Assembly (NCBI RefSeq): GCF_041146795.1
Contig: NC_135180.1
Span: 33,968,794-34,032,793, forward strand
Direction of reading: 5' to 3'
Length of the DNA stretch: 64,000 bases
From: Maylandia zebra
Taxonomy: Eukaryota > Chordata > Actinopteri > Cichliformes > Cichlidae
Both the position numbers and the translations under genes were made by a program. The notes beneath the pieces were generated by a model. The model saw nothing but the letters and a program-made list of their open reading frames with translations. It was not told where the DNA came from and ran no database searches. Below, one piece after another: positions 8,579 to 51,950 of this stretch (position 1 is its first letter; the number at the start of each line of letters is the position of its first letter).

Positions 8579-11500
8579 TCATCGGACTGCCTTGTGCTTT
8601 CCCCCACAGCAGCCACACCTCTCCCCACATCGCAGGCAGGCGCGCAAAGGCAGGTAGCAGCACATGCAGGGCACAAAGAGAGACAGGGCCAGGAGGGCCA
8701 ACCAGCGGGCACAGCAGAGGGGATGCGGGTGGCCCCCCATTGAGTCATCACATGAACAAGGCTCCCAGAACTCTCCCTCAGAGTCCGACATGCAGTGGTA
8801 GAGCAGACTCTCTGCGCACCACACACAGGTCCACTGGCGCAGGCAGTGCAGGGCCGGGTCTGGGGCATCTCTGCATCGGCCCCGCCCATTCTCTGAAGCA
8901 CTGAAAACAGAGCGGCAGTACACACAGCGAGACGAGCATGACGATGAAGCCTGAGGGCACGGGCTGTCATCATCGGGAGAGATTGCTCCTGGGTCACCAC
9001 TACTACTGGCCCCTCCTCCTCTCTTACGAGTCCGCGACCGGGGAGTGGCCAGCGATGTGTGGATGCAGCAGGGCGACGGCGAGCCTTTACCCGTCTCCTG
9101 GGGTGAACCGGCACCTGAGGACACGCCGGATACAGCATTGGGCATGGACATACAGATGGGTGACGATGAGGATAAACGCTGGGAGGCTTTACTGTCCAGG
9201 CTCACAGTCACATCACAGCCCGCCGAACCCACTCCCGCCAGCTCCTTCTCAAAGCGAACCACGCACAGCTCTGACTTGTCCTGCAGGCTTCCTCCACCAC
9301 CAACAACCACACCGCCAGTCAGCCCCCCAACCATAGTCCTTGTGGCCCCTGCCCGTCTGTAATCCTCATAACCTCGAGAACCCCACAGGTCTTTGCAAGG
9401 GTCCACACTGTGCAGGTCTCCCTCCTCCAGCAATGAAATAGTGGGTGAGAGGGGGGACAGGGGAGATGAGGCTGGGGGACCTACAGGAGGAGTAGGTGGA
9501 GCAGGAGGTGGGGGCGGGGGCGCCGGGGGATTCAACACAGCCGTCATTTGTGAGAGTTGGTGCTGGCCCGACCTGGTGTGGATCTGTGGAGAGGGTGTAG
9601 GATTACAGAGTGAGTCAGGAACATTGTGTACTATGGCAGTGGTTATAGAAGGTTTTCATTTCTCAGATATCCCACATCCATACACAAGAAATAGAAAAGG
9701 CCACACCTGTTAAAATCTCACTTTATGCATTCTCAATGTAGAACAAATAAACTTGCATGGACTTAACAGTGGGGACAGAGGGGGGAAAAATCAACCAAAA
9801 CAGTTGATGGGGTTTTTTTTTTTGGGGGGGGGGGGGATCTAAAACAGCTCACAAACCTCTTTCTAGGTTGTCTGCAGAAATCATTACTCAGCTTTTAAAG
9901 TGTTTATTGACGAGAAATAACTGCAAATAAGTGCAAATAACTGAAAAATCAGTTACAAATGCACATATCAAGATGTGCACATTATTCTCAGTGCAGTGGT
10001 ATGGTCTAGTCAGTAAACTACAGCTAGAGCAGGAGGTGGTGTGCTACCTGAGCAGGTGTTTGCGTGGTTACAGCATGGCTGGATCCAAAACTAAACTCTT
10101 CCGACCGCACGAAGCAAGTAGACGATGACTCGCTTGTCACTATGGTGATGGGTTTGGGAAGCATCTCCTTTCTGCTGTTGGATGACGACTCACTTCCTGT
10201 ATGAGACTGATAGAGGTTGCATGCCACCCCGCAAATCAAAAATCAACAATGACTGCATTTGGGTCAGGTGACAGAATACACAAACCCATTTTATTCAATA
10301 TGTGGTCAAACAATGACCTGTTCGGTTACTCACAGCTTGTCCGTCATCCTCAGTGTCGGCCTCTTCTGGCGTGGAGGATGAGGGCGAGTCAGAGCCTTGT
10401 AAACGTAAAAAGAGATGACTTAGGTTTTCCTGCATATTTTCTATGAATCATATTTTATACGCAGCTCATGTCTACCTCTGTCGAGCTTGTCTATGACAGT
10501 CTGAAGCCCTTTCTCAAAGGAGATGGCATCGGCAGGGCTCTGGAATGTAAGGCCAAACTTTCGATCCTCTACTCGCCAGTGATGGAAGATGGGGTTCACC
10601 TTGTTGTACACTAACCCTTTTTGCACTGCACACTCCAGCACCGGCTAGACAGAAACATCATTCCAGACAATTTAAGAAGTTAGTTAACCAATTAAGATCT
10701 AGTCCTTCCTTAAGTTTTAAGACAGCATATATCTACAGTCTTTGGATGGTGTTGACAAGCAACGTGTCACCAAAGACAGGCATAACACACGCACACACTC
10801 ACTGCTCGATCTCGCAGCCGTTCTCCACGTATGATGTACTCCCTCCGTCCCCTGCCATCATGACTCCGCCCCTTACATATGACCACATGACTGAGGCCAC
10901 CACCTCCAAGGGGCACCCAACCGCCACTGGAGTCATCACGTGTCATCACCACCGCACGAACACGCACACTGTCAGGGAAACCAAGAGTGAGCCGAGGCCA
11001 TGGCTGATTAACCAGTGTATCCTAATGTCTTGATGCATGCTCAATCATCCAGGTTAGGAAATCCCAAAATGTCTATTCTCTTCATCTGGCTGTAGCCTTT
11101 TCAGTGGGAGAAAGACTTTGTCACTCATCCAAGTGACTTTTTCTCTTCACCCTGAGACTAAAAAGCTCTAAGTCCAGATGAACAGAATAAACTTATTGGT
11201 ATGCACTATAATAATAAACACACACTGGCACACACATGTGCACAAATACCTGCAGCAACTGATATGCACAGTCATTCAAGTGAAAACAGGTAAAGCCAGA
11301 TCAACTTTCAGAACACAAAAATTCAGTACAGTGTGAGGATTTCAGGGTCAGGATTGATGCCAGCACACATGTTTCCATAAAGAAATTCACACAAAAACCA
11401 CAAAACTGACAGCTTAGTTGGACTATGAGTCGTGGCTATGCAACATGACCACTCAAAGGTATATCATACAGTAACTCATAGCTAAGGCAATTACTCATGT

Positions 11501-16684: not shown

Positions 16685-16996
16685 ATGACAAAACATGGCA
16701 GCGTCATTACACATCCAAGTACTCAAAAAACTAAACTTCCACCGTGAAACCAGTTTATTTTTGTTTTGTTTTTTGGTTAATCTGTCATTTTAAGGTTATT
16801 TGAATACACAAAATATTACTAATGATTCAAAACTTACATATCTTATTCACAATGCTCTTACAAACCTCTACCTGGCCACATAACACCTTAATTTGCTTAA
16901 ATGGCCTACAAATTAATACAATCAGGAAAATAAGTATAAATCAAATGAAACCCAGCAATGGCAGTGAAACAATACACAGATTGATGGACTCAATTC

Positions 16997-17288
16997 CTGA
17001 GCGATTGTGGCTCAAGAGTTGGGAGTTTGCCTTGTTATCAGAAGGTTGCCGGTTTGAGTCCTGGCTTGGACAGTCTCGGTCGTTGTGTCCTTGGGCAAGA
17101 CATTTCACCCGTTGCCTACTGGTGGTGGTCAGAGGGCCCGGTGGTGCCAGTGTCCGGCAGCCTCGCCTCTGTCAGTGCGCCCCAGAGTGGCTGTGGCTAC
17201 AATGTAGCTTGCCATCACCAGCGTGTGAATGTATGGGTGGATGACTGGTTGTGTAAAGCGCTATACAAATACAGGCCATTTACCATTT
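16997..17288 (+). mobile_element. tRNA-derived SINE, AFC-like
   Basis: A tRNA-like head with box A-like (GTGGCTCAAGAGTTGGGAG) and box B-like (GGTTTGAGTCC) motifs precedes a body with GTGTCCTTGGGCAAGACATT, CAGAGGGCCCGGTGGTGCCA and GTGTAAAGCGCTATACAAAT. The body matches my memory of AFC-type SINEs of African cichlids and relatives. It is nearly full length and is not a functional tRNA gene. Confidence 0.8.
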
Positions 17289-18685: not shown

Positions 18686-22503
<3,818 letters not shown>

Positions 22504-22613
22504 GGTGATTCTGCAAAATATACGACACCGGCCACCGTAACACGTTAAATGACTGTCGTGAAAAAAACCAAAACACGTTACTGCTTCCTTCAGAAATCAG
22601 ACAGTTGATCAAG
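22504..22613. promoter_or_regulatory. Bidirectional PSMD8 / NUP88 promoter interval
   Basis: Only 110 bp separate the two divergent start codons, so both 5' UTRs and the core promoters must overlap or be very short here unless non-coding first exons exist. No TATA box is seen at a fitting distance on either strand. Shared regulation is inferred from geometry. Confidence 0.7.
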
Positions 22614-24773
22614 ATGGCGGCACTCAATTCAGAACGGTGGCTCAATGACTTACCGAATCACACGATATTCAAAATAATACGCGAGAAGTTGGATTTGGAG
22701 TGCACCTCGAGTGAAAGAGGGATCGCTAAGAACCTCACGTTTTGTTTGGGAGCGGATTTGTTCGTGTGGGACGATTCAGACCGCGTGTTTTACACAACCA
22801 ACCTGCGGCACTTAAACTCAGAGGAGAGCTCCGGTAGCGGGAAGTATCAGACCTTGCTGTGCATCAACCCGCCGCTCTTTGAAGTGTGCCAGGTGCTGGT
22901 GAGCCCGACACAGCACCATGTCGCGCTGGTCGGTCAACGAGGCGTCTCGGTCCTGGAGCTTCCTCTGCGGTGGGGCAAGAGGTCCGAGTTTGAAGGCGGA
23001 CGCAGCAAAATCAACTGCAAGACCATCCCGGTGGCGGAGCGCTTCTTCACCAGCTCACCGTCGGTCAGTCTGCGACAGGCTGCTTGGTACCCTAGCGAGA
23101 CTGACGAGCCACATATGGTGCTGCTCACTTCAGACAACACGATCAGATTTTACAGCTTGAAGTCTCCGCAGACACCGGCCAAAATCCTGCCAGTGTCGCA
23201 GTCAGAAGACGAGAGCAGCCTCGACCCTCCGGTGCATTCGTACGCAGCTTCTCTGGGAGAGATAGCAGTGGCGTTTGACTTTGGGCCGATTTCATCCCCT
23301 CCTCGGCAGCTGGCAGGACAGGTCTCCAAAGACCAGCTGGTCTACCCTCTCTATATTCTTTACGAAAATGGGGAGACCTATGTGAACTACACGAGCCAGG
23401 TAAACGGTATAAGTCTGAGTAAACCCGTTGGACCTCTCCCCATGTATCCAGCAGCAGAGGATAACTATGGCTATGATGCTTGTGCCATTCTGTGCCTGCC
23501 ATGTGTTCCGAGTATCTTGGTCATCGCCACAGAAACTGGCACACTGTATCACTGTGTCGTGCTGGAGTCTGAAGAAGAGGATGACACGGGGGCAGTGGAA
23601 AAGTGGATCCGAGGCACAGAGACAGTGCCAGCTCTTTATGTGTTTGAGTGTGTTGAGCTAGAGCTCATACTTAAAGTGGCAACGGGAGAGGACGAGGAGC
23701 CGCAAGAGTTTGATTTCACCTGTCCAATCAAACTGCACAGAGACCCTCTCTGTCAGCACCGGTATCATTGCACCCATGAAGCAGGAGTGCACAGCGTGGG
23801 GCTAATCTGGGTCAACAAGCTGCAGAGGTTCCTTAAATCAGATGAGGAGGATAAGGACAGTCTCCAGGAGCTGGCTGCTGAGAAGCGCTGCATTGTAGAG
23901 CACATTCTTTGCACCAGACCGCTCCTGACCAGTCAGTCGGCTCCAATTCGTGGTTTTTTGATTGTGTCTGACCTTGCCTTGGGCGCCACCATGATCTGCA
24001 TCACCAGCACTTATGAGTGCATTCTGTTACCCCTTCTGAGCTCCATTCGCCCTCCTTCCCCTCCCCTGCTTTGCTCCCACCCAGGTCTGGGCTCTGCCAG
24101 CTCCCCTCTGCGTGGGCTGGCCGAAGACTCCTTTGAGCAGCACATTCGCAACATCCTGGCACGGAGCTCCACCAATCCTCTTGTACTTAAAGCTGGAGAC
24201 AAGGACACATCACCACCACCTCCAGAGTGTCTGGAGCTCCTCAGCAGAGCCACACAGGTGTTCCGCGAGGAGTACATTCTCAAGCAGGACATGGCTCGTG
24301 AAGAGATGCAGAGGAGGGTGAAACTCCTGACAGGCCAGAAGAACAAGCAGCTGGAGGATTTGTCTCTGTGCAGGGAGGAGAGGAAGAGTTTGAGAGAAGC
24401 AGCAGAAAGGTTGGCTGATAAATACGAAGATGCAAAGTATCGCCAAGAAACCATTATGAACAGGGTTAAGAAAGTGTTGTGTAGCCTGCAAAGCCAGCTA
24501 CCCATACTGTCAAACAGTGAAAAGGAAATGAAGAAGGAGCTGCAGACCATCAATGATCAACTGAAACACCTGGAAAACTGCATCAGACAGGTGAACATGA
24601 AGATGGAGTACCAGAAGACACAAGTGGGCAAGGATATGCCCGGAACTAGGGCAACAGTTTCCCTCAACGCTCCCCAGAAGAAGGTTGTTCAGGATGTCCT
24701 CAAAGAACAAGGACAGCAAATTGGTGACATGATGAAGCAGATCAAAGACATCAAAAATCATTTTAGTTTCTAA
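22614..24773 (+). CDS. nup88: NUP88 nucleoporin, intronless full-length gene
   Basis: Nuclear pore subunit of the NUP214-NUP88-NUP62 cytoplasmic-side complex, involved in CRM1 export. One uninterrupted 719-codon frame starts at ATG 22614, in an AAGATGG Kozak context. An upstream in-frame TTG at 22605 is not a plausible start. It aligns end to end with human NUP88 (741 aa): the N-terminal beta-propeller covers residues 1-500 ([73 protein letters not shown]), followed by C-terminal coiled coils at 540-719 ([38 protein letters not shown], terminal [13 protein letters not shown]). Mammalian NUP88 has many introns, so this looks like a functional retrogene. The frame is undamaged, which argues for selection. 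Confidence 0.95.
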
Positions 24774-25195
24774 GCACTGCAGAAAAATGCTAGTTTTTTT
24801 TCTGTATAGTTGGGAAAATATTTCAAATTTTCCATGGAATGCACCGTTATTACATTTCCGTTTTTCTGACATTTGATAAGAAGCTGTAATGAGTTCTTGA
24901 GCTCTAAGTGGTTGTGCTATCTTCTTATATGCTATATCTTATATGTGCTAGTGTAACTTTACCTTTCATACTAAATGTTTTTCCTTAATACAGAATACAG
25001 AAATACAAAAGGTTGGATTTTCTCTTACAAAAAGTTGTATATTTCTACATCAATATTTTTGACATGTTAATGATTGAATCACTAACATACTCAGTTTAAT
25101 GTCCCGTGTATAGGCAGGAAAAATTAAAAGTAATTTGTGCTAAACTAACCTTATACAGCTGTTTTCAATTTTGTTTGCTCACCTTTTTGCATAAA

Positions 25196-25205
25196 AATAA
25201 ATAAA
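25196..25205 (+). terminator. NUP88 polyadenylation signals (two overlapping AATAAA)
   Basis: AATAAATAAA about 425 bp after the NUP88 stop, followed by T-rich sequence. It is the first canonical hexamer pair downstream and would give a short 3' UTR. Confidence 0.6.
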
Positions 25206-27061
25206 TGAACTTGAAATTATTAAACTTGTTTGTGTCTCAATGTAGGATAGCTACAAAAAGCAGAAATATTAAGAGACAAATCCAAGTTAACAGTTTTATA
25301 TTGACATGCATTAACTGACACGTTCACAGCTGCTGGTTGCTGTATTTGCCAGAGTACTTGGAGAAAACCTGTGTAAACAGGGGGAAGATGCAAACATCAC
25401 AACGAAAGTCCCAGTTAGTAATTTAACTGCGAAAAAACAAACAAATGTGAACTGAACTAAATATTCCACGTCCTGGCAAGATGTTTGAACTTCTAAAGGA
25501 GGCTAAAATCATGTGAGTGTTTGGTTTGATATGGATGTTTAGCATAGATGCAATACATAGCATGCCCCCAGTAAGAGACACAGCAAGAGCATAACTCCTA
25601 AACAGAAGGCAGGAAATTATTTGTTTTGTCTTGGTTATTGTCTTAATAAACATTGCAAGCCAAAATTGTAAACAATGTTAAAATTCAAGTAGGGCTTCCT
25701 ACACACTAGGGATTCACTTTTTCTCCCGTGTCTGAACATGTCCTTCAATGTGCACAGCTGCATGCCTCCAGTCTGCCATCTACAGCTGGGAACTCCAGTG
25801 AACAATTTCAGCATAAGATTGCCAAGAATCCTGTATCCACCAGGTGTCACCCCATCTCCAGAGCTGACGGCCTCAGTTTTTCTTCCACCACAGGTTTCCT
25901 AGTGAGGAATTCCCCACATAAACAATCAGTGACGTATAAGGAGACCCCAGTTTTGTTGAGTAAGCTTCATTGTTGGGGATCTTTGTCGTCGCTGGGGTCA
26001 TCAACTGTAATTTAGGCTGCTTGCAGGGTTGCAGTGGTAGCTTGATTTGAATACCAAATATTTGAGATGGTTTATGACCCAGAATAACTATTTACATAAC
26101 AGACAAGCACTGTTCAAACTGCTATTGGGATTTATTTTTTTTTACTCTCTAAGAAGGTGTTGATAGCTGTGACTTAATAATATACAAGGAGAGCATTTTT
26201 AGTCAAGAAACTGCATGTCTTTATGATGATTTAGCTGTTTTTTCCACACACATCACCTCACACTTTTTCTCTCAGATACATAGAAGAGGGTGTGGTAAAC
26301 AGCAGGGCTCACTCGGGAACAGTCCAAAAGGGGAATTTTAAGTTCTTTCATAAAGGTACAATGTTTAGATCCTGAGGAAAGTTAGCAGACCCTAGGAAAG
26401 GAGATATTAATAACTCCCAGTCCAGCCCACCACATTCTTCACATGTGAGTCACTGTAAGCTGGAGAGCTGCGAGGAAAGGGCTGCATTGCCTCTGTTTCT
26501 CATTTGTGTTTCTTTCCATGGAGGAGTGGAAAAAGAAGGCGGGGAGGCCACTCCTTCTTTAGGAAAGCCTGAAACTCTTATGTGAAATACGCAGCTCTAC
26601 ACAGGACACATTCACGCTCATACCACATAGTTTACACCAAAACCAAACACTGTGTGCTGGGAGGCTAATGTGAATGCGAACATAGAACTAAACTGGGATG
26701 AAGGGGTACAAATAGACTGCATGTGTATGTGCAAGAGAACGAGGGGCAGAAAAAAGGCTTCAGATGGTGGGAACGACAAGGGAAAGAGCCTCGGAAAATG
26801 GTGGTATGGAGACTTGGCAGAGGAGACTGTGAGTCACTGTTTATGTGGTCTGTCACTGAGAGACCAAGTGAGCTTGATAAAACACAAAATGTTGTTGAAA
26901 AAGAGTCAAATCAAACCCCCATAGCTATTACTTCCATTTTAGGTTATTTATTTTCAGATTGTAGGCATTTTGATAACTAAGTTTAAAAACCTTTTCAAGT
27001 TGTACAAAAGTTTTTGCTTGTATGAAAGAATAACCAAAGACACTAGACACAGTCAGGTAGT
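25206..27061. other. Intergenic region between NUP88 and EHD2 3' ends
   Basis: No exon-like sequence and no recognised repeat. The base composition is ordinary. The two genes converge here. Confidence 0.5.
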
Positions 27062-27067
27062 TTTATT
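27062..27067 (-). terminator. Candidate EHD2 polyadenylation signal
   Basis: TTTATT on the plus strand, read as AATAAA on the EHD2 strand, about 755 bp after the EHD2 stop codon. Use is inferred. Confidence 0.5.
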
Positions 27068-27821
27068 TGGTTACAATGGTTGTTAACATAAGAACAGTTG
27101 GCAGAGCTGTGTACAGTAGTCAGTAACATGGCATTCATTCAGTCTAGTTGAGAATGTAATGTTCTTTTATGCAACGCAGATCCTGATCCTGCACATACAA
27201 CGTAAACAGCGACAATTTACAAAATAATGTATAAATTCAGCACAAAAATGTGACATGTAAAGCATCAGAGTGAAATGCATTCAGATTTTTAGATTTGTAC
27301 ATGATTGTTCTGTTACATGGAGAAGAAAATGCTGAAAACACAACAAAATAAGTTGAAAATAAATTTCTAAATGATGCTTCACTGGACTGATCACATGTGA
27401 AAAAAGGCATATTCCTACAAATAATCTCTAATATCTAGACACTGAAGGAATGTTAAAATGTCAAAAAAGGTGGGTTTTTTTTAAGAATAAAATTGCTCTG
27501 GAGTTTTTAAAAGTACATGCAGATTTTTGCTCACTTAGACTCAGCCTTTCATTTCTGCTCAGCAAATCTATATTCATCATAAAAAAGCCAACTTTGAGGA
27601 GTCAAAGGGAAGAAGCAAACAGATCCTTTGACTTATACACAATCCTTTTCTGAAAGCCCTTGTTTGTCAACTTATATTTAAATACAGCATGTTCATTGTG
27701 CAAGATTATAATCATTCTCAGAGGAAACGTTGCATACCTAACATGCAACGTTTAGATTTGGGTCTGCAGGAAAATAAGAGCAAATACAACAGTAGCATAG
27801 GTGTGACAGCCAGTAGATGGT

Positions 27822-30800
27822 CTATGCATCAGAGCCTTTCTGCCTACGTTTGGAGGGTGGGATCAGACGGTTGGGAAGCTCAGGGGGAAGACCATGACCC
27901 TCCAGCTTGACCTCAATTAGGTGGCTGGCCAGGGCAAATTCTTCATCATCCAACATGCCATCACGATCGACATCTGAGAGCTTCCAGATGCGACCCAGAA
28001 CAGAGTTGGGCAGGCGGGAGCTCACCATCCAGTCCTTTGCCTTGGTGCCGCTTAGTTTCCCCTCGTTGGGAGCAAGGTTGTAGAAGATTTCATCATATTT
28101 GGGCTTGTCTTTGGTCACCACCCAATCTTCCTCCTCCTCACAACCCTCTCCATTTTCCTCAACAAAGGGGTCACCTTCTGAGAAAGGTCCAGCACGGGTC
28201 CCCAAGAAGGCACCACCCTGCACACCTGGTTGATCACCTGCTTCCAGCTCCTCTTGCCTCAGGAGGGGCATCAGTTTGGCAATGTCACTGGAGAGCAACT
28301 CATCCAAGGATGCCATCAGATTAGGCTTCAAGGATTTGAACTTGGTGAAATCATGAACCATCAGTTGTTCCTTTAAAAATGAGAATAATGTGTTAGTCCT
28401 TAGATTAATAGTTACATTAGAATAAACTTTCCTGTTGTAACCACAAGTTAACAGAAGTTGCTTGTAAACAAAGCCAGTGTTTCAAACAAACCTGCATCTT
28501 AGCACAGTCTGGAAAGTCTCCAGCAGAAATGTTGTGCTGAAGCTGGATCTTGGAGAAAATAACTGGTAGCTGATAGATCAGATTCTTCTTTTTATTATCC
28601 TTCCTGAAGACAGAACGCATCTCCTGCTTCAGGTGGCTGATGATGTGGGCGTGGACCTAGGATTTAGAGAAATAAAACACACAGAGTGCACCAATATGAC
28701 TTTCTGAATAATCATTTAATGAAAACATGCTGAGACGTGAACAAATATGCAACTCGCTCACCCTAACCAGACGGGCTCTCTTGACCAGATCATTGAGTTT
28801 GCGTATGGCTGCATTTCGAGGAAGGTTTTGAATATCAGCAAAGAGATCCTCCTCCTCCAGCTCAAACAACTTACGGTTGTCGTTCACCAGCAATGGCTCT
28901 GCCCAGAAGGAGCCGATATAGACACGTAGAACCTCTGGAGTGCCAAATACCTTCCCCAGGGACCACATCAGGGCACCATACACTCGCATCAGCTGCTGGG
29001 TGCCCACCATGTCTGCTTTGTTTAGCACCACACGCAGTTTGTCTTCGTTGCCTTTCAGGGCACCGATGGCCTCAGAGAACTCATCGGATATCTCTAGCTT
29101 GTGAGCATCAAACAGCAGGACGATGCGGTCCACACGTTCTGCAAACCAGCGCAGTACAGCTGGGAAGTCATACCCTGTTTAAACAAAAAAGATGCAATCA
29201 CTGATTCATCCGTAGACCTAAATGTGGAGTATGCATTGAACAAACAAGGGTCAGGAGAGGGAAGAAGGTCGACACAGACACAAACCCTAAAGATTATAAT
29301 CTGTAAAATCCCAAAGACTGAATTTCCGGTCACAGAGGCTTCATTTTTGTGCAAGACATAATGAAAAAGAATTCTTTGACTTAATGTATGAAAGTGAAAG
29401 TCTAATAAATTAGTTAATATTTTTTCAGGCACTGGTTGATCTGTATCAACATGATTCTACTAAATCATAAGTTCATCAAAATCCCCCCAAAGAAAACACA
29501 TTCCACATACTTTTTGTGGGATGGCCACATAGATAGTTTTGGTTTTTATCTTTTTTGGTTTTAAGAAAGCATCTCTAAATTTTTGATAACTGAACTGTGG
29601 TACACACAGCACAAGAACTGATAAAAAAAAAAAGAAGTAGTAGCCTACTTTTAAAAGAGCATCTCAGTATCTCTGAATAATCCAGTCCATTTGTTGTTGA
29701 GTGAGAAACTGAGACTTCTCTTTTAACATCTTATTTACTTCCATCCTCTTAGGATATAGAAGCAAATCTTGCAGATGAATATTTTAAAAAATTCTAGTGA
29801 TCAAACCAAAACTGTTTACATGGCTAAATACCACCAGCGGTAAGCAAGGAAATATGTTTTCATAATTTGGGTATACTGACACTTTAAACTTGTTAGTTGC
29901 TCATGCAGATTGATTGGAATAATGGTTTGCTTGGAGCATGAGTGAATATTAAATTAGAAAAAAACAAAATGGTGTGAGGTGATTGTGATAGTTAATGCTC
30001 AACAGTACATTCTTCCAGATGTGCTCGCAGAATTGACTGCACTGTTTCTGTTCCTTATTATGATTTTATGGCTGCTGTGTACTGCAGAGATTTTATTTTT
30101 TTTTTATCTCTGCTGCCAAATGTCATTGCAACAGAGCATACTGGTCCCATGAGTTAGCCAGGCGTGCCAAGGAGATGAGTTTGTGAGCTGATGTTCAAGG
30201 ACGTGTGTCTCTGCAGGCCCCCCATGCCCTCTCCTCACCTTTGCCTTTTCCCTCACCTCGGCTCACTCTCTGTTTGGCACCAGACAGGATCCCTGGTGTG
30301 TCAATAATGCTGATGCTCTCCAGAACCTGGTTAGGCATTTGGGCACACTGGAATCTAGCATATTCATCAGCAAACAAAGAATGACATAAGATTGTTTAAG
30401 AGTCTAAATTATGTGGAAATAGTCAATTCTTATCAAAAAAAGCCAGAGCGATCTCAGGAGCAGATTGAAAGCCACTCTGTCCACACACCCTGTCCCTCCC
30501 ACTGAAGGCCATTGTGTGCAAGCAGGCCTCTTTTGCTCTGGGCTTCCTGAAGGAAAATGACCATTACTGCCAGAATCAAACAATAAGGCCTGCTAACGAT
30601 GTGGGGCTTAGAACAACACCACTGCTTCCTGCAGCTTATGGGCTTAACGAGCCCACTGGTTCCTAGAACAGGAAGTCAACGCAAAAGGAGAGACGCAAAT
30701 ACATTCTCAAACATACCCTGCTGAGGGAGACAGGAACGCATGCTTGGAAAACTTGCACCAGAATGTCATGATGGAGCCCATTAACAGAAGCACTCTAAGT

Positions 30801-49667: not shown

Positions 49668-50650
49668 CAGTTCATTTTTATTTCAAACATATACATTCAC
49701 CAACATTTCATAAAATCTTTCCATGTAGTTGTTTGAAAAGTAGGCAGAAGTATATACTTATTTAGCCCTACCCCCTCAGGTTTACATCATCATCATCTAA
49801 ATTTGAACAACAAAAAACGTATACAATGCCTTCAACTTAGAACATAACATCACAAAAATATATTTTCTCATGTTCAACTAAAACTATATTTAGATTTGCT
49901 AATTTGCAGAAGAAAATAAACATCAGTTTAACTGCTGTCTTGGGTTAATTGCATTTTCTTCATTCTTATACTTATTTAAAATTTCTTTTTTGAGTTTTAT
50001 TTTAAACTGGTTTATATCACTACTGACCTTTATTTCTTCTTTTAATTCATTCCAGAATTTAACTCCCGCTATTGAAATAGACATCCTTTTCAATGTTGTT
50101 CTTACTCTTTGTAATTTTAAATTCCACTTCCCTCTAAAATTGTACCTCCCTTCTCTTTCTAAGAACCATTTACTTATTTCGATTGGGAGCATCCCTTTCC
50201 TTGCCTTATATATTATTTGCACTGTTTTAAACTTCACCAGATCCTGGAATTTTATAGTTTGCGTCTTAATGAAGAGTGCGTTTGTGTGAGCCCTATACCC
50301 CTCCTGATTTATTAGTCTAATAGCCCTTTTCTGCATTATGATTATAGTCTGAATATTACTTTTATATGTATTGCCCCAAACCTCTACACAATAACTCGTG
50401 TATGGTAATTGTAAAGCACAATATAACATATACAATGTTTTCCTATCCAGAAATTGTTTTACTTTCCCCAAGACAGCAATGCCCCGTGCTAACTTTCCCC
50501 TCACATAAGTGATATGTGATTTCCAACAGGCCTTATGATCAATGATCACACCAAGAAATTTTATGGTATTAACCCATTCTAGATATACATTATCAACACA
50601 AATTTCAATGTTAATGTTTTTCTTATAGTTTCCGAATAACATAAACTCAC
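49668..50650 (-). mobile_element. 5'-truncated LINE (reverse transcriptase end)
   Basis: A 239-codon open stretch (49923-50642, minus strand) has the C-terminal part of a non-LTR retrotransposon reverse transcriptase: IKFLGVIIDHKACWKSHI, then LPYTSYCVEVWGNTY and IIIMQKRAIRLIN, as in the L2/CR1/Rex group. The preceding codon region already contains an in-frame stop, so the copy is truncated and not active. About 250 bp of 3' UTR-like sequence follows to about 49668. It lies in the 5' intron of BICRA in the same direction as the gene. Confidence 0.85.
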
Positions 50651-51950
50651 TCTAATTACTCTTAGGTAGTATGGGCTACATAGTTAGTTAATAACAATAT
50701 TAATAAACATTTATGAAGTCCATCACATTAATTTCAAAGTCCTTGATTTTCCCCTGTGTGTTTTTAAAATTCAAATTATGAGTAATGACTCATTAAATCA
50801 TTACATCACCTATCACTGTCAGATATTTCGGTGTCTTGTTAGGATAAAGCAAGCATGACGTGATAAATAAAATATGAGGTCCTTAAATTATAAAATAATA
50901 ATAAAGTTTACAGTTAAATACAGAAACTGATTTTCAAAAAATTCAACGTCTTTTAACACCTACACTTATCAACAACAGAAATCCCCATGTGGTAACGAAC
51001 CCATCGAGAGACCAAGCAGAACTCATATTTGTTAAAATCCGAAAAAACAGCGGATGGCAATAGACAACAAACTGAAAACGCGCGGTTTTCGCTCCGCCTG
51101 CAAAGATTTCGAGAACGGGCTCTCGCCTCCCGCTGAATTTACCACAACTCAAAACACCAGCTGTGCCTTTCGTTTCCAACAACACGAAAACACCATCTCA
51201 AATCAGCTTCCACGAGTTTACCGAGACCTATAAAGCGACCGTACACCCAGTTGCCGCTCTGAAGCAGCAGCAGATCGTAGCCATTGCTCGGTTAGAGCGC
51301 AGCTAGTACGCAGGATATGAATGGAGTCACTGCAAGAGGCTTGCTACATGCTAGCTAGTGTTTTCAAAGAGCTTTGCATGTATATTTCGCTTATTACTCA
51401 CAACACGGAGTATTTCGTAGCCACACTGCTGACTTAAAACACTAATTTAACAAAACGTTTAATTTTAAACCACTGTTTTGCCTCTATTTTCAGTCATTTT
51501 AACGCATCTGGGTTGACTTTCGTTAGCCTAGCTAGCTAACCAGCTAAGCCAACAAGCTATCAACAATATTGAGACGTACAGCTAGCTTGAGGCTTTGACA
51601 TTCAAAACAAACCAGCGAGTGACACAATTTTAACACCCCTAGTGCACAACGATGCCTCGATTTGACAAAGACAAGGCAGTATTGTCTGATTTGAAGCGTA
51701 AACGCAATTGCGTAGCTAGCTATCTCTCCTTGTAAGCAAAATATGAGTTAATGTTGGAATACTCTTGGATGAGGGGGGTATGCTTGGGAATTCGGTGGAA
51801 AATGAGCATGTTCGCCGGTTCGTGCGGCAGCGTGGCGCTTCGATTGCGGTAGCTGTGCAGTTCGTGGCTCGCGTGCAGTTCGCGAATATTGCAGCTTTGT
51901 AACAGTTTTTTGGATTAATAGAGAAATTGCTACATTGTAACAAACTCACC

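Follow-up and report, generated by a model that had tools for sequence, protein, structure and literature searches.

A probable NUP88 retrogene without introns, head to head with PSMD8 in the cichlid Maylandia zebra and accompanied by a decayed partial copy

The genome of the cichlid Maylandia zebra holds an intronless NUP88 gene, which lies head to head with the proteasome gene PSMD8 and has a decayed partial twin inside the first intron of this neighbor. The gene was found in the stretch of 64,000 nucleotides analysed here (the window), and it is well preserved, being in our reading a retrogene that probably still works and that is likely to have captured a housekeeping promoter. We hold with good confidence a scenario in which NUP88 was retroposed beside PSMD8, captured one side of its promoter, was retained by purifying selection and, at a later time, had its 3′ end duplicated. 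The features on which this scenario is built are collected in Table 1.

Table 1. Features of the NUP88-PSMD8 region; positions are those of the window
Feature	Position	Strand	Support or value
PSMD8 intron 1, 1312 bp, GT/AG ends, holds the relic	21087..22398	-	
Decayed NUP88 relic, comprising the final 31 codons, the stop and roughly 270 bp of 3′UTR, and carrying an in-frame stop; homologous to 24674-25042	21574..21944	+	blastn E 1.1e-45, tblastn E 4e-7
CpG-rich stretch that begins where the relic ends and spans the promoter and the initial 800 bp of NUP88 coding sequence	21945..23413		CpG o/e 0.80-1.27 by segment
A14 run situated 60 bp past the secure relic boundary; perhaps left over from a poly(A) tail, perhaps chance	22004..22017	+	
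Coding portion of PSMD8 exon 1: 35 codons from the ATG (A at 22503), followed by GTAAAG	22399..22503	-	
Presumed core of a shared two-way promoter, 110 bp between the PSMD8 and NUP88 ATGs	22504..22613		CpG o/e 1.27
Intronless NUP88 gene, single frame of 719 aa and stop	22614..24773	+	Pfam, structure-sequence matches, alignment
Presumed 3′UTR of NUP88, with ATTAAA at 25123, AATAAA at 25196 and ATTAAA at 25219	24774..25224	+	

The NUP88 frame runs from ATG to TAA without interruption, and its start codon is well placed (AAGATGG). The Pfam Nup88 profile (PF10168) is matched in full, from position 1 to 702 of 702, with 1017 bits against a cut-off of 24.4; in addition, the translation matches residues 11-741 of human NUP88 (7r5j, E 4e-294) and residues 4-728 of Xenopus Nup88 (7tdz, E 9e-278). 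The statement of the first-pass annotation that a frame of 719 codons aligns end to end with this nucleoporin is thereby confirmed. Identity amounts to 448 of 712 aligned residues with the human protein and to 426 of 712 with the Xenopus one, human and Xenopus sharing, for reference, 477 of 722. Both residues involved in human disease, D434 and E634 (PMC6307818), are kept in the alignment as D413 and E612 of the cichlid frame. With the frame masked, a tblastn search of the remaining 61.8 kb of the window returned at E below 0.1 the relic only, the next best NUP88-like stretch having an E of 0.62. Rfam and tRNA scans gave no matches, and PDB searches with two 5′ open reading frames gave none either.

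The absence of introns is the first indication of how this gene arose. In human NUP88, c.1525 belongs to exon 11 and c.1899-1901 to exon 14 (PMC6307818), and these two variant sites correspond to codons 489 and 612 of the uninterrupted cichlid frame. Because both codons fall in a single frame, the cichlid gene lacks at least 13 introns that interrupt human NUP88. The second indication is location: human NUP88 lies at 17p13, next to RPAIN, and the genes around the cichlid copy (DHX34, a Sprouty-family gene, PSMD8, EHD2, alpha-SNAP and a BICRA-like gene) belong to human chromosome 19q13. Taken together, the missing introns and the different neighbors suggest an insertion derived from mRNA, which is the best reading of the frame; both the RNA route and its date are deduced from intron absence and from gene order and location.

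The block reads DHX34 (+), a Sprouty-domain gene (-), PSMD8 (-), NUP88 (+), EHD2 (-) and alpha-SNAP (+). PSMD8 and EHD2, which lie on either side of NUP88, are spliced genes, and alpha-SNAP is split in exons, as two adjoining pieces of its protein are separated in the DNA. DHX34 and the Sprouty-domain gene were each recognised by one domain, namely the zinc finger of the former and the Pfam Sprouty domain at 8582-9655 (-) of the latter, which we assume, from its place near PSMD8, to be probably SPRED3. Between EHD2 and alpha-SNAP, at about 35-46 kb (-), lies what we take to be a BICRA-like gene, maybe the sixth neighbor of the earlier annotation; none of its scanned open reading frames (four of four) had a Pfam match. 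Of the six spliced neighbors claimed, three (PSMD8, EHD2 and alpha-SNAP) are thus shown to be spliced in the window. The more general proposal that an mRNA was copied into this locus and kept under selection finds support in the absence of introns, in the full-length frame, in spliced neighbors that differ from the one in human and in the one-sided replacements relative to the relic that are described below.

The usual hallmarks of a retrocopy, a poly(A) tail and a target-site duplication, are not apparent at the intact gene. Specifically, there is no plus-strand run of eight or more A from 24774 to 29622, the first one being at 29623; no convincing flanking repeat was found among the 20 of 31 repeat families listed, and a second check for target-site duplications gave weak, chance-like repeats only (four of four families). 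This condition fits an old insertion, and the lack of a fresh tail and of a clear duplication argues against a young copy. It also fits other routes of intron loss. For example, NUP88 might already have stood beside PSMD8 in the fish ancestor and have lost its introns in place, by recombination with its own cDNA, a route that would leave the intact copy, as observed, with neither tail nor clear target-site duplication. However, the human gene is elsewhere, beside RPAIN, while the neighbors in the window are those of human 19q13, and at least 13 introns are gone together, an outcome that in general rarely happens at once in place. Intron loss in place is, in our judgement, quite improbable, and retroposition is the reading adopted in what follows.

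The arrangement of the two genes, on which the first-pass annotation is silent, suggests how the inserted copy could be expressed. The A of the NUP88 ATG is at 22614 (+) and that of PSMD8 at 22503 (-), in a head-to-head layout, the identity of PSMD8 resting on a later exon within 19339-19656. Since the two ATGs are 110 bp apart within a CpG-rich stretch, a two-way promoter shared by PSMD8 and NUP88 is likely. The CpG o/e is 0.24 to the left of the relic and 0.18 in the relic itself, 1.01 at 21945-22199 and 0.80 at 22200-22503; beyond the promoter core, it is 1.02 at 22614-22913 and 0.83 at 22914-23413, both inside NUP88, and 0.40, 0.25, 0.28 and 0.25 in the successive segments after 23413. The left edge of the CpG-rich stretch coincides with the right edge of the relic (21944/21945), where the o/e passes from 0.18 to 1.01.

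The same gradient is visible in codon usage. Where a choice exists, CpG-bearing codons make up 34 of 78 in the first 267 codons of NUP88 versus 17 of 115 from there to the end (Fisher p 1.2e-5). In other words, the early coding part of the gene, which in the spliced parent was probably distributed over several exons, is composed like an unmethylated promoter region. An enrichment of this kind would be expected from long adjacency to an unmethylated promoter, and the CpG pattern may thus be taken to signal an old gene as well as a functioning two-way promoter. Part of the 5′ CpG richness may have been inherited with the first exon of the parent.

The relic in intron 1 of PSMD8, which the first-pass annotation does not mention, is 371 bp long, has the same orientation as NUP88 and ends 669 bp before the NUP88 ATG. 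The bounds counted here are those of Table 1, a lenient alignment having run from 21553 to 22311. In ungapped comparison, relic and intact gene agree at 82% of 100 coding sites and at 83% of 238 sites in the UTR, with a K2P divergence of 0.21 and 0.19, respectively, and 22 gap events under the scoring used. At the right edge, the sequence 21945-22003 has no significant similarity to the 3′UTR (its score is reached by 538 of 2000 shuffles in one comparison and by 636 of 1000 in another), and the lack of homology past 21944, together with the CpG jump at 21945, identifies 21944 as a junction. The left edge falls just after CCAG: to the left of it, any homology stays within chance (as high a score is reached by 302 of 1000 shuffles), and when CCAG is included the count is 13 of 1000. 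The context at this point resembles a splice acceptor, ranking at the 96.6th percentile of the 4286 plus-strand AGs in the window by a weight matrix. The coding part of the relic, 21578-21676 (+), starts directly behind this acceptor-like CAG, at the equivalent of codon 710/711 in human NUP88, homology beginning with CCAG followed by AAG.

The simplest reading of the relic is that the 3′ end of the retrogene was duplicated locally as DNA. This is favored by the common orientation, by the short distance from the NUP88 ATG and by the fact that homology stops short of the AATAAA and ATTAAA motifs; the start after CCAG in an acceptor-like context counts against it, as a local duplication does not predict such a start. 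That start would instead be expected if the relic had been the terminal exon of a NUP88 copy with introns, either a remnant of the parental gene or a DNA duplication from the parent, in which case homology should end, as it does, at an acceptor-like site. Nevertheless, no further NUP88 exon was found in the window, and a spliced gene ending there would overlap the exons of PSMD8, so that an origin as a last exon seems rather doubtful.

An independent NUP88 retrocopy, truncated at its 5′ end and terminating in the A14 run at 22004-22017, is likewise unlikely, if a little less so. The run is on the right strand, 60 bp past the relic, and belongs to a set of seven plus-strand A-runs of at least 14 in the 64 kb. 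Yet 21945-22003 shows no significant 3′UTR homology, and the CpG jump places a junction at 21944. In the intact gene, the first AATAAA or ATTAAA downstream of the stop is at 25123, and two independent insertions within 0.7 kb are improbable by chance.

We also considered a tandem duplication of the whole block, PSMD8 exon 1 included, of which no trace was found, a copy of the 3′ end being all that is seen. In particular, a search of both parts of intron 1 for remains of the PSMD8 promoter and exon 1 gave nothing above chance (254 of 500 and 224 of 500 shuffles scored at least as high), and the similarity between the portions of intron 1 to the left and to the right of the relic does not stand out from shuffles, with a score of 24, compared with a mean of 22.7 and a maximum of 33 in 200 shuffles.

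The relic offers a view of the selection acting on the intact copy. Over 32 aligned codons, stop included, the two differ by eight replacement and eight synonymous changes. When the replacements are polarised with human and Xenopus, seven of the eight can be placed, and all seven are on the relic and none on the intact copy, the eighth staying unresolved. The binomial probability of this 7:0 pattern is 0.008 one-sided and 0.016 two-sided, for seven changes in 31 codons, a small sample, and the test assumes that the relic split from the intact copy or from its direct ancestor. As all placed replacements are on the relic, the intact copy has probably been under purifying selection since the split. 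This asymmetry is the strongest evidence obtained here for such selection, and it can be read without the sequence of the parent.

Neutral simulation provides a rough check. With 0.1 substitutions per site, a frame of equal length escaped interruption in 1 of 2000 runs, 0.1 being a value that is half the divergence between relic and intact copy if both evolved neutrally, and in 72 of 2000 at 0.05. At 0.01 it stayed open in 955 of 2000 runs, and an open frame at such lower divergence is no surprise. It is on this last figure that a different interpretation could be based, namely that the frame is a young, unexpressed retropseudogene, inserted too recently to have decayed. With seven of seven placed replacements on the side of the relic, CpG-rich codons in the first 800 bp and no fresh tail, we regard it as very improbable.

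The history that emerges for a selected retrogene would be the following. A spliced NUP88 mRNA would have been reverse-transcribed and inserted between PSMD8 and EHD2, landing head to head with PSMD8 and capturing one side of its CpG-rich housekeeping promoter. Promoter capture would have conferred broad transcription on the copy, whose product is predicted to be an ordinary full-length NUP88, with the beta-propeller and the coiled coil joining NUP214 and NUP62 at the pore. The copy would then have been retained by purifying selection. Later on, a local DNA duplication would have placed in intron 1 of PSMD8 either the gene's 3′ end or a longer block of which that end is what survives, and the duplicate would have decayed there.

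As for the spliced parent, we incline slightly to the view that it has been lost, and that the intronless copy, driven by the PSMD8 promoter, is now the sole source of this essential pore subunit. The other reading, less probable in our estimate and still a substantial one, is that the copy is an extra NUP88 and that the parent survives elsewhere in the genome, the work being shared or divided between the two; nothing in the window excludes it. What speaks against an extra copy is, on one side, that one nup88 orthologue only has been reported for zebrafish; its product has 720 aa and is 63% identical to the human protein, and its loss is lethal (PMC6307818). On the other side, the cichlid copy is as conserved relative to human as the zebrafish gene (62.9% identity over a protein of 719 aa), with no sign of relaxed constraint.

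The zebrafish gene is also informative on the age of the intronless state. Nonsense-mediated decay usually requires a downstream intron. A nonsense allele at codon 244 of zebrafish nup88 lowers its mRNA by about 90%, for which the authors suggest nonsense-mediated decay (PMC6307818). The suggested decay, combined with the need for a downstream intron, implies that zebrafish nup88 is probably spliced, in contrast to the intronless gene described here. The intronless copy would then probably have arisen after the zebrafish line branched off, or have been lost in zebrafish. Searches for protein relatives of NUP88 in prokaryote and virus collections gave none, the pattern matches obtained (1 viral, 10 genome) all failing confirmation.

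Retrogenes and the replacement of parents by them are well known as a class, and NUP88 is an unusual gene to be found in such a state. Among the literature matches listed, no paper dealt with an intronless or retroposed nup88, and the gene is not named in the main text of PMC8207432, PMC3136929 and PMC13320880. One close likeness is with the intronless rhodopsin and Opn4m2 retrogenes of teleosts, which are full-length copies of multi-exon genes, inserted at a new place in ray-finned fishes and retained for a very long time (PMC10339062). In that case, parent and copy both persist in many fishes, and parent rhodopsin changed its expression (same source). By contrast, NUP88 is an essential housekeeping pore subunit, and its promoter is likely in common with a neighbor. 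A second likeness is with orphan retrogenes such as human CHMP1B, in which an intronless copy carries the whole original function, as proposed here, and for which loss of the parent is reported (PMC5408686).

If the parent is gone, the locus would show clearly that an essential, single-copy housekeeping gene can give way to a copy of its own mRNA. The route to expression would be visible, in the form of a promoter shared with a proteasome gene, and the supply of a pore subunit would be tied to that promoter. Furthermore, production of a nuclear export factor would not depend on the splicing of its own transcript, and nonsense alleles of the gene should, in contrast to the zebrafish allele as reported, be spared the decay that depends on splicing. 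The decayed sister beside the copy could serve as a clock.

Two more open stretches of the window deserve mention. The one at 49926-50651 (-), of 242 aa and without a Pfam match, resembles the region downstream of the reverse transcriptase domain in proteins of non-LTR retrotransposons; non-LTR retrotransposons supply the machinery for retrocopies. The other, at 16804-17241 (+) and also without a Pfam match, resembles a dispersed fish repeat.
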